Shown here piece after piece: positions 36,450-53,406 of a stretch of DNA of 64,000 bases (within the stretch, counting starts at the first letter, position 1; each line of letters begins with the position of its first letter). Origin of the DNA: Saprospiraceae bacterium (GTDB taxonomy: Bacteria; Bacteroidota; Bacteroidia; Chitinophagales; Saprospiraceae); NCBI GenBank assembly GCA_020629845.1, contig JAHDCQ010000002.1, positions 1 through 64,000 of the forward strand. The letters run 5' to 3'. A program made the position numbers and the translations under genes. Below the pieces are notes generated by a model. It ran no database searches. It saw nothing but the letters and a program-made list of their open reading frames with translations, and was not told the DNA's origin.

Positions 36450-36507
36450 CTCATCTCTCATCTCTCATCTCTCATCTCTCATCTCTCATCTCTCATCTCT
36501 CATCTCT
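36450..36507. repeat. Heptamer microsatellite (CATCTCT)n
   Basis: About eight tandem copies of CATCTCT, reaching the stop codon of the minus-strand Crp-type gene. Length variation here could alter the gene's 3' end or 3' UTR. Confidence 0.9.
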
Positions 36508-37054
36508 ATTTCGCACTTGCCTTAATCCGCGAAAGCGTCTCAGGAGTCATCCGAAGATAAGCCGCAATATATTTGCTTGGAATTTCCTGAAATAACTGCG
36601 GACTACGCGCAAACACCCGCTTATATCGCTCCAAAGGGGAAGCCGTGAGCAAATCTATTTCCCGCTCAAGTTGGTCACAAAGGAGTTGGTCTTTGATGCT
36701 ATTCCAAAGCCGAGCATGTAAGGCATCACTTTCCATAAATTCCAAAAAGCGACTTTTTTGCATCACGCTAATAGCACACCCCTTAATCGCCTGAATATAA
36801 AATTCCGAAGGGGTTTCTTGAATAAAAGAATCCAATGCGACCAGAAAAGAACCAGCGTAGCCAAATCGAATCGTATGTTCCTCCCATTCATCTTCTATAA
36901 AAATCCGCAAACTTCCACGCCTCACATAGTAGATATTCGTATCTACACTACCGCGCACTTTCAGGAACTCGTTGCGTTTCAGTTGCACTTCCTTATGCCA
37001 AAGTGGAGTAGGGGAGGCATCCATTTTTGCCTTTAGTACTTGTATTGGATTCAT
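36506..37054 (-). CDS. Crp/Fnr-family regulator (cyclic nucleotide-binding fold)
   Basis: 182 aa. cNMP-binding beta-roll (about 20-125; KVRGSVDTNIYYVRRGSLRI and SFLVALDSFIQETPSEFYIQ) and a short C-terminal HTH ending IAAYLRMTPETLSRI. This is the short Bacteroidota type with 180-190 residues, in which ligand binding is often not demonstrated. The start codon abuts a 96-bp palindromic element (family B), so that element occupies its promoter or leader. Probably regulated through that region. Targets unknown. Confidence 0.88.
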   Translation of the reverse strand: MNPIQVLKAKMDASPTPLWHKEVQLKRNEFLKVRGSVDTNIYYVRRGSLRIFIEDEWEEHTIRFGYAGSFLVALDSFIQETPSEFYIQAIKGCAISVMQKSRFLEFMESDALHARLWNSIKDQLLCDQLEREIDLLTASPLERYKRVFARSPQLFQEIPSKYIAAYLRMTPETLSRIKASAK

Positions 37055-37149
37055 AAGTAGTTAAGTCTATCTATTTCCCATTTTTAGCAAGTTGATTTTT
37101 TTGAAAAGCAGCCCGATAAAAATGGAAAATAGATAGACTTAACTACTTA
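37054..37149. repeat. 96-bp palindromic element, family B (copy 1)
   Basis: 33-nt arms (37054-37086 and 37117-37149), complementary except for one position, around a core holding AGTTGATTTTTTTGAA and GCAGCC. It abuts the start codon of the Crp-type gene and lies upstream of the acidic lipoprotein gene. Copy 2, same length, inverted core, is at 53311-53406. No target-site duplication is visible, so a regulatory role or old insertion are both possible. Confidence 0.8.
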
Positions 37150-37357
37150 ACGTTAAAGAAAAAGAATTTTTTTGAAAAAAAATGCCTTTCGTGCAGCGTT
37201 AAGCCTATTATTAGCAAATAATAAAAATAGAAGTCTTGTTTTAAGACACATAAACAGATTTGTATATTTATTGCTAAATGAGAAAAACAGGATGGAGATA
37301 AGGAGTTCGAAAATAAGGAATTATAAATCTCACATCTCATATCTAATTCAATAATCA

Positions 37358-39562
37358 ATGAATACATTCAAAACGTGGCTTGGTATTTTTATCCTAGCGT
37401 CCATATTCTTAAGCAGTTGTCAAAAAGACAATTTTGACCTCATAGAAGCCGAAAAAGAGGAACTAAAACCAGAAATAAACGGCTTTAATGACCTTACCAA
37501 TCGTATGTTGCCCGATGAAATGGGGGACGGCATTAAGTTGGGGTGCTTTATGATAGAAACACCCTTCGATGTAGTAGATGAGGAAGGTGTTACGCATACC
37601 ATCAACGAGAAGGAAGACCTTCTTAATCTTCGTCAAGAACGCATACGAGTCAAAGATTTTGTATACCCACTTCAAATTACGTATGAAGATGGTGAAGCAC
37701 GTGCAATTGAAGATGCCGCAGCCTTAGGTCGTGCATTCGCGGCTTGCTTGCCGGGGGGCGATTTTGATTTTGATTATTTCCCCGCTTATGCTATCAATTT
37801 TGACAATTCTTGTCTTACTATAAAGTATCCGATTACAGTAATGAAGATGGATAGTAGTGAGGTAGAAATCGAAGATGAAGCCACCTTGAGCGCGCTTTTG
37901 GCAGCCGAGGAAGATAAGGTGTTTTTCACTTTCCCAATGGAACTCTACGATGAAGAAGAGAATATCAAAACAGCCAATTCAGCAGGCGAACTAAAGCGAT
38001 TGCTACTAGAGTGCAATGAAGGCGATAGAGACTATGATGACTGGGATGGAGATTTCTCTGGTTTGCGTTGCTATGACTTAGTGTTTCCGTTAGAAGTAGT
38101 ACTTATCAATGGAGAAATAAAAGAAGTAGAAGAGCCAGAAGATTTGCGCCGCTTACTGTTTTACGGCAAAGTGAAAGAATTCGTATACCCATTGGCATTA
38201 TTAACCCAAGAAGGCGAAGAGTTTGAAGTAGCATCTAGAGAGGAACTCAAAGCCGCGCTAGAGGAATGTGAAGGCTGGCACGACCGCGATGGTGGCTGGG
38301 ATGTAGGCGTATTATTCTTCGGAGGTATGGAGTGTTTTGAGATTGCATTTCCTATTGAAGTAAAAGCCTATAATGAGCGTAGAGAAGAGCGTGATGCGAC
38401 AATTAATAATATGGAAGAATTTGCACGCTTCCTTCGCAATGAAAATATTGTACATAGCGAATTAATCTATCCTGTCACGATTGTACTTGATGAAGAAGAG
38501 CTGGTACTAGAAGATGCCGATATGCTAAAAGCTGCCTTTGAAGACTGCGAGGGCAGATGGCAAGATGAGGATAGAGATTGGGATTGGGACAGAGACCGAG
38601 ATAGAGAACATGACCGCTTTTGGGATGTAGGAGCATTACTTTTGGGAGCAGAATTTTGCTATGAAATTGTTTATCCAATAGAAATAGTGGCTTATAACCG
38701 AAATCGGGAGGAGGAAATCCTTAACATTAACAATGAAGAGGAGCTAAAACGCCTCATTCGTAGCCGCGATTTTGTATTCACTAAACTAGTATATCCAGTA
38801 ACAGTAACTGCTGAATGGGTAGATACGCCCATCGAAATAGATAATGCAGAGGCACTTTGGGGACTCCTAGAACGCTGCGGAGAACTACGCGACGATGACG
38901 ATGATGATAATGATGACAACGATGATGAAGAGGATGATGCAGGTTGGGGTTTTTTGTCCCTATACAGAGGTGCTGAACGAGAATGTTATGCTATCAATTT
39001 TCCAATAGAAGTAGTGAGCTACAACTGGCGAGGCGAGGAACGTTCCATAGAGATAGAAGATATGGAGCAATATGAGCGAGTGATTAGAAATAATGCTTTC
39101 AGAGTGGTCAAATTGATTTATCCAGTAAGCGTTCGTACAGAAGATGGCGAGTTGGAATTAGAAAGTGCTGAAATGCTAGGAAGACTCCTAGAGGGATGTA
39201 GAGGCGACCGTGATGATGACGAAGATGACCACGACGACGACGATGATGAGGATGAAGACGACGACGACGATGACGACGAGGGTGAAGATAGAGCCGAAAC
39301 CGATACAGCACTACTCTACAAAGGAGCATTGGAATGTTACACTATCAATTTCCCAATAGATGTGAAAACATATAACGAGCAGCGAGAAGAAAGTACTGTA
39401 AGCATCAACGACATGGACGAACTCGCGGCACTGCTTGAAGATGAAACAATCGTATTTAGCCGTTTGGTCTATCCAATTGATATTGTTTGGACAGAGGGCG
39501 AGCGTGAAATTCGCATTCAAGGGCCAATTATGCTATTTGGTCTGATAGAACGTTGTTTCTAG
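37358..39562 (+). CDS. Acidic lipoprotein with seven two-cysteine repeats
   Basis: 734 aa; I do not recognise the family. Lipobox FLSSC (Cys21), then seven repeats of about 70 residues, each opened and closed by one Cys: 63/130, 152/219, 238/304, 326/397, 434/507, 543/614, 660/733. Apart from Cys21 there are no other Cys. Each repeat has two similar halves: C(Y/F)xIxFPIxV...(E/D)(E/D)L..LL and LxYPVxV...GExxxxxxxxLxxLLxxC. Linkers lengthen toward the C-terminus and become Asp runs (for example DDDDDDNDDNDDEEDD near 512-527). One disulfide per repeat and calcium or cation binding by the linkers are inference. Just 31 bp before the ECF sigma gene. Confidence 0.82.
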   Translation: MNTFKTWLGIFILASIFLSSCQKDNFDLIEAEKEELKPEINGFNDLTNRMLPDEMGDGIKLGCFMIETPFDVVDEEGVTHTINEKEDLLNLRQERIRVKDFVYPLQITYEDGEARAIEDAAALGRAFAACLPGGDFDFDYFPAYAINFDNSCLTIKYPITVMKMDSSEVEIEDEATLSALLAAEEDKVFFTFPMELYDEEENIKTANSAGELKRLLLECNEGDRDYDDWDGDFSGLRCYDLVFPLEVVLINGEIKEVEEPEDLRRLLFYGKVKEFVYPLALLTQEGEEFEVASREELKAALEECEGWHDRDGGWDVGVLFFGGMECFEIAFPIEVKAYNERREERDATINNMEEFARFLRNENIVHSELIYPVTIVLDEEELVLEDADMLKAAFEDCEGRWQDEDRDWDWDRDRDREHDRFWDVGALLLGAEFCYEIVYPIEIVAYNRNREEEILNINNEEELKRLIRSRDFVFTKLVYPVTVTAEWVDTPIEIDNAEALWGLLERCGELRDDDDDDNDDNDDEEDDAGWGFLSLYRGAERECYAINFPIEVVSYNWRGEERSIEIEDMEQYERVIRNNAFRVVKLIYPVSVRTEDGELELESAEMLGRLLEGCRGDRDDDEDDHDDDDDEDEDDDDDDDEGEDRAETDTALLYKGALECYTINFPIDVKTYNEQREESTVSINDMDELAALLEDETIVFSRLVYPIDIVWTEGEREIRIQGPIMLFGLIERCF

Positions 39563-39593
39563 CTAAGGGCTAATAGCCAATCCACGATAATTA

Positions 39594-40202
39594 TTGGGAA
39601 AGGTTAAAGTCGAGCTAAGTAGGACGCATACTAATTACATATTGGAAATCAATCAGCACATAATAGAGCGATGCCAAAATAAAGACGAAGCGGCGTATAG
39701 GATGGTTTATCAGTCCTATGCGCCCTACTTGTATGCTATTGTGAAGAATTATTTCAAGGGACAGGAAGAGCGAAAAGATGTGTTGCAAGAAATATTTGCA
39801 CAAATTTTTACCTCTATCCATCGCTTTGATGCTACGAAAGGTGCTTTCAAATCGTGGATAAGTAAAATAGCCGTCAATCAATGTGCATATCACCTACGGA
39901 AGCGAAGCAAACTACATATCGTATTTTCGATAGATGAAGTAAATGAACAGGCAGAAGTAGTATTGCCACATTTAGAAGGATTAGATAAACACACCCTTGA
40001 GCAATTACTGCATCAAATGCCAGAGGGCTACCGGACTGTTTTTTTGCTGCATGTGGTAGATGGCTACAAGCATAAAGAGATTAGTGAACGATTAGGAATC
40101 AAGGAACAAAGCTCGCGCTCGCAATTGGCGCGCGCTATTAAGTGGATACGGCAGAACACACAGGTACAGCAGCAATTATTGAGCTTAATAAGTCTTAGCT
40201 AA
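39594..40202 (+). CDS. ECF-type RNA polymerase sigma factor
   Basis: About 202 aa from a TTG; no ATG is available early in the frame, and a TTG at 39641 (MEINQHIIERC) is a more usual beginning for this family. Sigma-2 region: AAYRMVYQSYAPYLYAIVKN and DVLQEIFAQIFTSIHRFD; sigma-4 region: LLHQMPEGYRTVFLLHVVDG followed by GYKHKEISERLGIKEQSSRS. It lies between an acidic lipoprotein gene (31 bp) and a membrane protein gene (1-bp overlap), and thus is likely part of a three-gene operon in which the downstream product is a candidate anti-sigma or signal transducer. Confidence 0.88.
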   Translation: MGKVKVELSRTHTNYILEINQHIIERCQNKDEAAYRMVYQSYAPYLYAIVKNYFKGQEERKDVLQEIFAQIFTSIHRFDATKGAFKSWISKIAVNQCAYHLRKRSKLHIVFSIDEVNEQAEVVLPHLEGLDKHTLEQLLHQMPEGYRTVFLLHVVDGYKHKEISERLGIKEQSSRSQLARAIKWIRQNTQVQQQLLSLISLS

Positions 40203-41569
40203 TGGAATACGATAATACACATATCCGACAGCAACTCCGCCAAGAGGAAGCCCTACCCGAAGGCTTTGCTTGGGATGATATGCGTACGGGCATACTCGCG
40301 GAGATAGATGCCTTAGAACAGGATGATGAGCCTACTATCATTCCTGCTTGGTTGTATTGGAAAGAAACTGCTGGCTTATTGGCAACAACTTTATTATTGC
40401 TTACATATTATTGCTACCAATATGCATCGAATAGTGAAATACAGCTAGAAGAATATGCTATTGTCCCAAGTGATGACCAATCTAAGAGAGAGCATACAAT
40501 AAAAACATTAGAATTAGAGGTACCAAACACTCATCTATCAGAAGTAGTAACTAAAACTACAACTACCGGGGAAGCGGATGTAGGCAAGCAACTAATGCTT
40601 GTGACGCATAAAGAGCATTTAGGTACGCAAACCATTACTCGAGATGCTTCTACGGACAAGCATATCCATCCTTCTGCTCATTCGCAGGAGGTGGATATTG
40701 TTTTTGAAAAATTGGAATCATCCGCTTCAACATCCGCTATAAAAACAAATGCTCCTCAAGCACAGTTAGATGCAAATCGCCTCCTACCAATAGTGCCAAT
40801 GCTTAGTCCTAAAGTATTGAGCTTATCCACTCAACAACAAGTTTTGCTTTTATCTTCCACTCCTAGCCAGCCATCGAAAAAAGCAGGGGAGTTTGCCTTA
40901 GCTCTTAGTGGTGGTAGTAATATTTGGACAGCTAACTATAAGAATACGGTACGTGAAGATTTGGAAGCTGTAATTTTGGGAGCTCAAGTAGGTATAGCAG
41001 CTACTTATCGCTTGCCCAAGCAGTTTTTTGCTAGTGCAGGTGTACAATGGCAGCAGTTACAAAGTCAATTTAAATACGAAAGCTCTCAATTGGCAAGCGT
41101 AGAAGAGCGCAGTGCCTTAGTACGTTTGGATATTAACCTCATTTCTAACGACACTACTTTTGTCTACATGGATACGACCATTAATGTGATAGAAACAAGA
41201 ATGGTGCGGCACGCCAATCAGCATCAAGTGTGGAATATTCCAGTAGTGTTGGGGTATGAATGGCAAACAGAACGCTTCCGTTTTGGACTCGGTGCAGGCG
41301 GCGTATTAGCGATTCAAAGCAAAGCCAATGGTCGCACATGGAATGGTACAGATATTATTGCCTACGATGAAAATACGCCCATCTATTCAACAAATTATGG
41401 CGCAGGTATCATCGCGCAAGCAAGCCTAGATTATAAGTTGAATAAGGATTTTTACATTGGGGCATCGCTGTCAAATACAAGCTGGCTGAAAAATTGGAGT
41501 ATAGAAGAGGGCGTTCAGGCAAAGCCTAATGTAACCGCTTTATCTCTTGCCGTAGGAAAGACATTTTAG
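40202..41569 (+). CDS. Membrane protein with anti-sigma-like N-terminus and beta-barrel-like C-terminus
   Basis: 455 aa. Starts within the sigma gene's stop (TAATG, 1-bp overlap). The N-terminal about 55 residues are acidic and cytoplasmic (LPEGFAWDDMRTGILAEIDA), resembling small anti-sigma domains; a single transmembrane helix follows (about 60-78), then a Ser/Thr-rich linker (about 80-225) and a C-terminal region (about 230-455) with alternating hydrophobic strands and GVQWQQLQSQFKYESSQLA-like turns that looks like an outer-membrane beta-barrel (PorT-like). Such one-TM plus barrel-like proteins after ECF sigma genes are common in Saprospiria-type genomes, and it is unclear how one chain could span both membranes. 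Confidence 0.72.
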   Translation: MEYDNTHIRQQLRQEEALPEGFAWDDMRTGILAEIDALEQDDEPTIIPAWLYWKETAGLLATTLLLLTYYCYQYASNSEIQLEEYAIVPSDDQSKREHTIKTLELEVPNTHLSEVVTKTTTTGEADVGKQLMLVTHKEHLGTQTITRDASTDKHIHPSAHSQEVDIVFEKLESSASTSAIKTNAPQAQLDANRLLPIVPMLSPKVLSLSTQQQVLLLSSTPSQPSKKAGEFALALSGGSNIWTANYKNTVREDLEAVILGAQVGIAATYRLPKQFFASAGVQWQQLQSQFKYESSQLASVEERSALVRLDINLISNDTTFVYMDTTINVIETRMVRHANQHQVWNIPVVLGYEWQTERFRFGLGAGGVLAIQSKANGRTWNGTDIIAYDENTPIYSTNYGAGIIAQASLDYKLNKDFYIGASLSNTSWLKNWSIEEGVQAKPNVTALSLAVGKTF

Positions 41570-53310: not shown

Positions 53311-53406
53311 TAGGTAGTTAAGTGTAAATACTTTCCGCTACTATTGGCTGCCATTCAAAAAAATCAACTCAATAGCAACAGGAAATTATTTATACTCGAC
53401 TACTTA
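53311..53406. repeat. 96-bp palindromic element, family B (copy 2, inverted)
   Basis: Same length as 37054-37149; its reverse complement shares TAAGTAGT, ATTTCC, AGTTGATTTTTTTGAA, GCAGCC, GGAAA and CTTAACTAC in the same order. The arms have diverged, but pairing remains. Placed upstream of the thioredoxin-like lipoprotein gene. Confidence 0.75.

Follow-up and report, generated by a model that had tools for sequence, protein, structure and literature searches.

Das/Dma pairs are a kind of ECF sigma factor circuit described since 2024. The Dma anti-sigma factors, which are encoded beside an ECF21 sigma factor, are built from an anti-sigma domain, a TM helix, a disordered tether, and a C-terminal barrel (PMC13088901). 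When dma2 is deleted in B. thetaiotaomicron, das2 and the genes next to it go up by log2 4.5-6, and dma1 works via the lipoprotein-like NigD1. Dma anti-sigma factors are still a young class, and the questions about them concern the cue that they sense and the purpose that they serve. Another type of circuit, FecI/FecR, joins an ECF sigma factor to FecR and a TonB-plug receptor. The locus described here, in which a repeat-containing lipoprotein is encoded in front of an ECF sigma factor and a membrane-spanning partner, can be compared with both.

The locus lies in a window of 64,000 nucleotides (the whole stretch of DNA that was analysed) from a Saprospiraceae bacterium, GenBank assembly GCA_020629845.1, contig JAHDCQ010000002.1, and comprises three genes on one strand:

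37358..39562, + strand: lipoprotein of 734 aa with seven predicted disulfide-repeat units (open reading frame, Cys map, homologues)
39594..40202, + strand: ECF sigma factor, Das-like (Pfam; alignment favours a TTG start at 39642)
40202..41569, + strand: gene 3, predicted Dma-like anti-sigma protein of 455 aa (homologues, structure model)

The second gene is identified by Pfam matches to Sigma70_r2 (3e-16) and Sigma70_r4_2 (8e-17). Base 40202 is common to its stop codon and to the ATG of gene 3, which is the 1-bp overlap reported in the original prediction; the corresponding overlap in homologues is 8-32 bp, apart from one bigger value with an uncertain start. The 31-bp gap given there between lipoprotein and sigma genes is right for a start at TTG 39594 but not for the start that homology favours, as the sigma homologues align from TTG 39642 and the gap then becomes 79 bp. 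A search for terminator-like sites between the module genes found none. Divergent from the lipoprotein gene is a gene for a Crp/Fnr-like protein (cNMP_binding; 36506-37054, - strand), and its start is abutted by an imperfect inverted repeat at 37054-37149 with 46-nt arms, 87% complementarity, and a 4-nt loop. A second copy of this repeat is present in the window at 53311-53406, partial copies occur on three other contigs, and the repeat looks like a dispersed palindromic element.

Conservation of the gene order across related genomes indicates that these genes belong together. A search that used only the lipoprotein found relatives in 28 of 100 related genomes, the window's own genome not counted, and in eight long relatives the lipoprotein gene is followed immediately by homologous sigma and barrel genes. 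An alignment scan of named genomes, a collection in which the single lipoprotein sequence had found no match, gave 18 lipoprotein loci, each of them belonging either to Saprospiraceae or to a Chitinophagales MAG. Lipoprotein, sigma, and barrel genes follow one another in one order and on one strand at all 16 of these loci with enough contig; at the other two the contig ends at or just behind the lipoprotein gene. Four of the 16 are contigs already in the first set, and with L122, from another family, and the window itself the distinct loci come to 21, with the order unbroken in 21/21 testable cases. The operon is kept across these loci at 13-36% amino-acid identity, with identities to the window proteins of 24-34% for the lipoprotein, 36-48% for the sigma factor, and 14-28% for gene 3. 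Because these identities are low, recent descent alone does not explain the kept gene order, and because the search used the lipoprotein only, the linkage is not an artefact of how the loci were found. By this comparison the three genes are a real conserved operon; chance or an annotation artefact is ruled out by conservation across diverged genomes. The original prediction, which had treated the three genes as one module and proposed a gene-neighbourhood search as a check, is borne out in Saprospiraceae and relatives.

A resemblance to known systems lies in gene 3. A structure model built from 17 homologues, together with motif and hydropathy evidence, divides the protein into four predicted regions:

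40202..40345, + strand: cytoplasmic anti-sigma region with helices at residues 5-12 and 24-39 (motif; model pLDDT about 50)
40346..40429, + strand: inner-membrane TM helix, residues 49-76 (model, hydropathy)
40430..40879, + strand: disordered periplasmic tether, residues 77-226 (pLDDT mostly 25-38)
40880..41566, + strand: outer-membrane beta-barrel, residues 227-455 (pLDDT mostly 80-97; OmpA match)

Model confidence in the N-terminal region is low; a LPxxFxWxxMxxGI motif is conserved there in nine of the first nine homologues. The TM helix has pLDDT values of 78-85 across most of its length, and the tether of ~150 residues stays below 50 throughout. For the barrel, the top PDB match is the TM domain of OmpA (E 1e-8, TM-score 0.73 by target length); the OMP_b-brl_2 family is detected in 8 of the 17 homologues, the window copy being below the cut-off. 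A domain scan of gene 3 for FecR or Plug domains gave no match. Model and fold match agree with the earlier description of a barrel-like protein with one TM helix. As gene 3 shows the Dma anatomy, genes 2 and 3 look like a Das/Dma-like pair, a likeness drawn from the modelled anatomy and the adjacent ECF gene. From the same anatomy it is very probable that, as had been proposed, the membrane protein transmits to the sigma factor. The statement in the original prediction that no described system has this set of genes holds for the whole set but not for genes 2 and 3, which match Das/Dma (PMC13088901). Elsewhere in the same genome (L170, contig C249), another ECF sigma gene is followed by a gene for a one-TM protein of 456 aa, with a fasciclin-like lipoprotein encoded divergently, a possible second circuit pairing an ECF sigma factor with a surface lipoprotein.

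The lipoprotein represents the unfamiliar part of the operon. Exactly 14 Cys residues follow Cys21, in seven pairs (63/130, 152/219, 238/304, 326/397, 434/507, 543/614, and 660/733), so that the Cys map agrees with the predicted two Cys per repeat at a spacing of 66-73 residues and gives seven units:

37358..37420, + strand: lipoprotein signal peptide, lipobox ...LSSC21 followed by QKDN (sequence, family composition)
37544..37747, + strand: unit 1, residues 63-130 (Cys map)
37811..38014, + strand: unit 2, residues 152-219 (Cys map)
38069..38269, + strand: unit 3, residues 238-304 (Cys map; model of units 3-4)
38333..38548, + strand: unit 4, residues 326-397 (Cys map; model of units 3-4)
38657..38878, + strand: unit 5, residues 434-507 (Cys map)
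38879..38983, + strand: acidic linker between units 5 and 6, 49% D/E, GAT/GAC triplet array (composition, DNA)
38984..39199, + strand: unit 6, residues 543-614 (Cys map)
39200..39334, + strand: acidic linker between units 6 and 7, 62% D/E, GAT/GAC triplet array (composition, DNA)
39335..39556, + strand: unit 7, residues 660-733 (Cys map)

According to a profile over 211 units, every Cys-Cys unit itself consists of a ~33-residue element in duplicate, with the consensus C-FEIVYPITLVDPDGTTVTVNSEEELEDLLE / DFVYPITVLEDGETVTVNSEEELFELLEE-C. A tandem model of units 3-4 (54 rows, mean pLDDT 93.3) has strand-strand-strand-helix twice in each unit. As one Cys stands at either end of the unit and the pairs are near-invariant in every unit, we infer that each pair forms a disulfide. 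No fold match to the units was found in PDB or BFVD at E<=0.001 (Foldseek being weak at such domain size), no sequence relative of the unit was found in PDB, and the 22 lipoprotein relatives scanned have no Pfam or NCBIfam family in common; the unit thus defines an unnamed domain family and is perhaps also a new fold. DUF7767 is above the cut-off in one distant relative only and is not claimed as the identity of the unit, and a domain scan of the lipoprotein for NigD, DUF4943, and DUF4858 gave no match.

In the window lipoprotein, linkers lengthen from 18-21 to 35-45 residues, and the last two are the Asp-rich linkers that had been noted toward the C terminus. Linkers in the other Dma-type relatives are 5-35% D/E, and acidic linkers are scattered in other members of the family, where 13 of the 142 linkers with 15 or more residues are at least 50% acidic. 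Because they recur in scattered members, the acidic linkers look like repeated independent gains, and Asp triplet arrays of this kind can expand by slippage. Unit number also varies, from 4 to 7 among Dma-type lipoproteins. With regard to location, the surface-export signal of Capnocytophaga lipoproteins is C-X-K-(D/E)2-X, and the consensus after the lipobox Cys of the repeat-lipoprotein family, Q/T-K-(D/E)-(E/N/D), is like that of Bacteroidota surface lipoproteins carrying this signal (PMC5080379). The QKDN of the window protein lacks one of the two acidic residues that the minimal K-(D/E)2 requires, and since it does not strictly meet the signal, surface exposure of this lipoprotein is only likely.

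A candidate promoter precedes the lipoprotein gene:

37192..37223, + strand: predicted ECF-type operon promoter, TGCAGCG-N18-AATAATA (gapless motif; own-genome pattern search)

This site, TGCAGCGTTAAGCCTATTATTAGCAAATAATA, ends 134 bp before the ATG, further than at most loci, and is off by one core base from the family consensus TGCAACG-N17/18-AATAnTA, which is found upstream of the lipoprotein gene at 20-21 of 21 loci. The full TGCAACG occurs in 16 of the 21 upstream regions (a set that includes the near copies L080 and L082) against 0.16 expected from first-order Markov sequences; the shorter TGCARC occurs in 20 against 1.5 expected, the last region having TGCATCG. In a gapless alignment, AATAnTA stands 17-18 bases downstream of the first element in nearly all regions. 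TGCAACG is likewise found upstream of the sigma/barrel-pair locus L122, and TGCAAC is absent from 13 intergenic regions of divergent-ECF relatives. The motif search that had been suggested for promoters of the sigma factor thus yielded a candidate; a search of Bacteroidota ECF papers turned up none with a matching TGCAAC promoter motif.

The set of sites appears to be narrow. After a first wide scan proved too strict, recovering two of eight known module sites, a looser pattern was applied to four genomes and gave 29 matches, compared with 27 for a reversed control. For 24 of these, the site is within a gene or is not followed by a gene start in the next 300 bp; the module lipoprotein accounts for four of the five intergenic matches upstream of a gene. 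A strict scan of the window's own genome gave four sites, two of them inside genes and one without an open reading frame of 60 aa. A broad regulon was rejected, given that upstream-of-gene matches in the four genomes are almost confined to the module lipoprotein. The simplest reading of these patterns is that the module sigma factor, which would read the TGCAACG/AATAnTA motif, has its own operon as target and not much more.

Repeat lipoproteins also occur outside operons of this type. In a sample of 70 distinct genes from the wider family, which leaves the window out, 20 are followed by a sigma and barrel pair. Another 27 are encoded divergently to an ECF gene, directly beside it in 24 cases; 6 have an ECF gene no more than three genes away but otherwise arranged; and 17 are without a nearby ECF gene, several of these being cut by contig ends. 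The divergent system at L138 consists of ECF, FecR, and a CarbopepD_reg_2/Plug protein and that at L053 of ECF, a small lipoprotein, and FecR; position and length suggest FecR in the remaining divergent loci. When a tree is built from the first two units, the Dma-type label needs 3 changes compared with 18 in shuffles, and Dma-type lipoproteins fall on one side of a branch along with L033 and L040, the only two rows on that side that lack the pair, both of them contig ends. This deepest split has support of just 97/66, and L122 is long-branched. Homologous lipoproteins without the sigma pair, which the original prediction regarded as evidence against itself, do therefore exist, but they lie across the lipoprotein tree from the Dma-type members.

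Other variations on the repeat architecture are evident in the sample. The short two-unit relatives at L051, L053, L054, and L127 have a divergent ECF gene followed by a ~155-aa lipoprotein and a FecR-like gene, and the ~155-aa lipoprotein of L053 has weak metallopeptidase matches (PF18894/PF06114). At L045:594-2204 and L052:5896-7695, the repeat units follow an N-terminal DUF4382 domain within one fused protein. The window's own genome encodes two short paralogues (L059:5965-6720 and L058:7199-7894), of which one has a 67% acidic linker and lacks a nearby ECF gene and the other is located 284 bases from the end of a contig.

By comparison and prediction from the conserved operon, the Dma-like anatomy, the promoter motif, the narrow site set, and the unit architecture, the best explanation, to which we assign a probability of about 0.7, is a Das/Dma-like circuit in one autoregulated operon with the lipoprotein as its dedicated output. 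Gene 3 would span both membranes, its N terminus presumably binding the sigma factor and holding it at the inner membrane, its disordered tether crossing the periplasm, and its OmpA-like barrel sitting in the outer membrane. Some event that affects the barrel at the outer membrane, perhaps a partner being lost or blocked, stress, or a shortage of lipoprotein, would free the sigma factor for transcription from the TGCAACG/AATAnTA promoter before the lipoprotein gene, and firing of this promoter would produce more lipoprotein, more sigma factor, and more anti-sigma factor. The lipoprotein would string together rigid disulfide-closed units. It is probably located on or in the outer membrane, where it would act as a structural element, a spacer, or a binding protein, and it may feed back on the barrel. 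As it shares one conserved operon with the sigma factor and the Dma-like protein, it is probably what the sigma switch exists to control. By analogy, the logic of such a circuit has direct precedent in the rise of das2 and its neighbouring genes upon dma2 deletion and in the action of dma1 via NigD1. An autoregulated envelope lipoprotein, which the original prediction gave as its alternative, is thus the better supported half of that prediction, given a motif of fixed spacing at nearly every locus.

The strict gene linkage would also be compatible with a lipoprotein that serves as sensor input, binding a ligand or touching the Dma barrel and so gating sigma release, and this possibility, which we hold to be considerably less probable, gains something from same-family relatives adjoining an ECF gene with FecR and a TonB-plug receptor, as though the lipoprotein were what the two settings have in common. 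However, the promoter motif makes the lipoprotein an output anyway, even if input and output can coexist, and variation in unit number among Dma-type members would be odd for a fixed contact. The surface cation or redox sensor proposed in the original prediction, in which Asp linkers bind Ca2+ or Mg2+ or the Cys pairs act as a switch, with gene 3 as the transmitter, is brought to mind by two linkers that are 49-62% acidic and by the seven Cys pairs, but it now seems very improbable. Cation-binding Asp linkers are ruled out as a module trait, since the acidic linkers are particular to the window copy and the much less acidic linkers of other Dma-type members place the trait outside the conserved module; the Asp runs are, moreover, slippage-expandable triplet arrays. 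Near-invariant Cys pairs in each unit are expected of structural disulfides, which they fit at least as well as redox sensing.

It is similarly hard to credit that the lipoprotein is purely structural and merely adjoins an unrelated ECF/anti-sigma pair. The 17 wider-family members without a nearby ECF gene would accord with such independence, although several are at contig ends; intact linkage at all 21 testable Dma-type loci at low identity, a promoter motif that these loci have in common ahead of the lipoprotein gene, and the lack of any terminator-like site found between the genes argue against it. More tentatively, and going beyond the output circuit preferred here, the repeat domain might be a signalling-associated envelope module of Bacteroidota, the lipoprotein being both sole output and sensed ligand for at least two sensor types. 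If that were true for both the Dma barrel and FecR with its TonB receptor, the cell would be measuring the state of its own lipoprotein coat.

How much of this is new can be stated only as far as our searches reach. The kind of circuit is known from Das/Dma; the lipoprotein family with its disulfide-repeat domain, the operon with the lipoprotein in fixed first place, and the promoter motif appear to be undescribed. Outside Bacteroides, nearly the entire regulon seems to consist of one undescribed, probably surface-exposed lipoprotein, which narrows the Dma question to one barrel, one sigma factor, one promoter, and one lipoprotein, and the motif offers a testable element. The unnamed repeat family, with 70 distinct genes besides the window, is in turn associated with two types of ECF system that differ in their sensor.

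Compared with Das/Dma systems (PMC13088901; PNAS 2024;121:e2321910121), the module shares an ECF sigma factor adjoining a protein with an anti-sigma N terminus (predicted for the module), a TM helix, a long disordered tether, and a C-terminal beta-barrel; it shares the operon itself as a target, on the module side as predicted from the motif; and it shares, again as predicted, targets that are lipoproteins or of unknown function, represented in Das/Dma by nigD1 and BT_1556/BT_1557. It differs in placing the lipoprotein gene first in the operon and in drawing that lipoprotein from an unnamed disulfide-repeat family. Compared with FecI/FecR, relatives of the repeat lipoprotein divergently adjoin such systems in Bacteroidota, whereas the window module, without FecR and without a TonB receptor, has the barrel-tethered gene 3 in their place.
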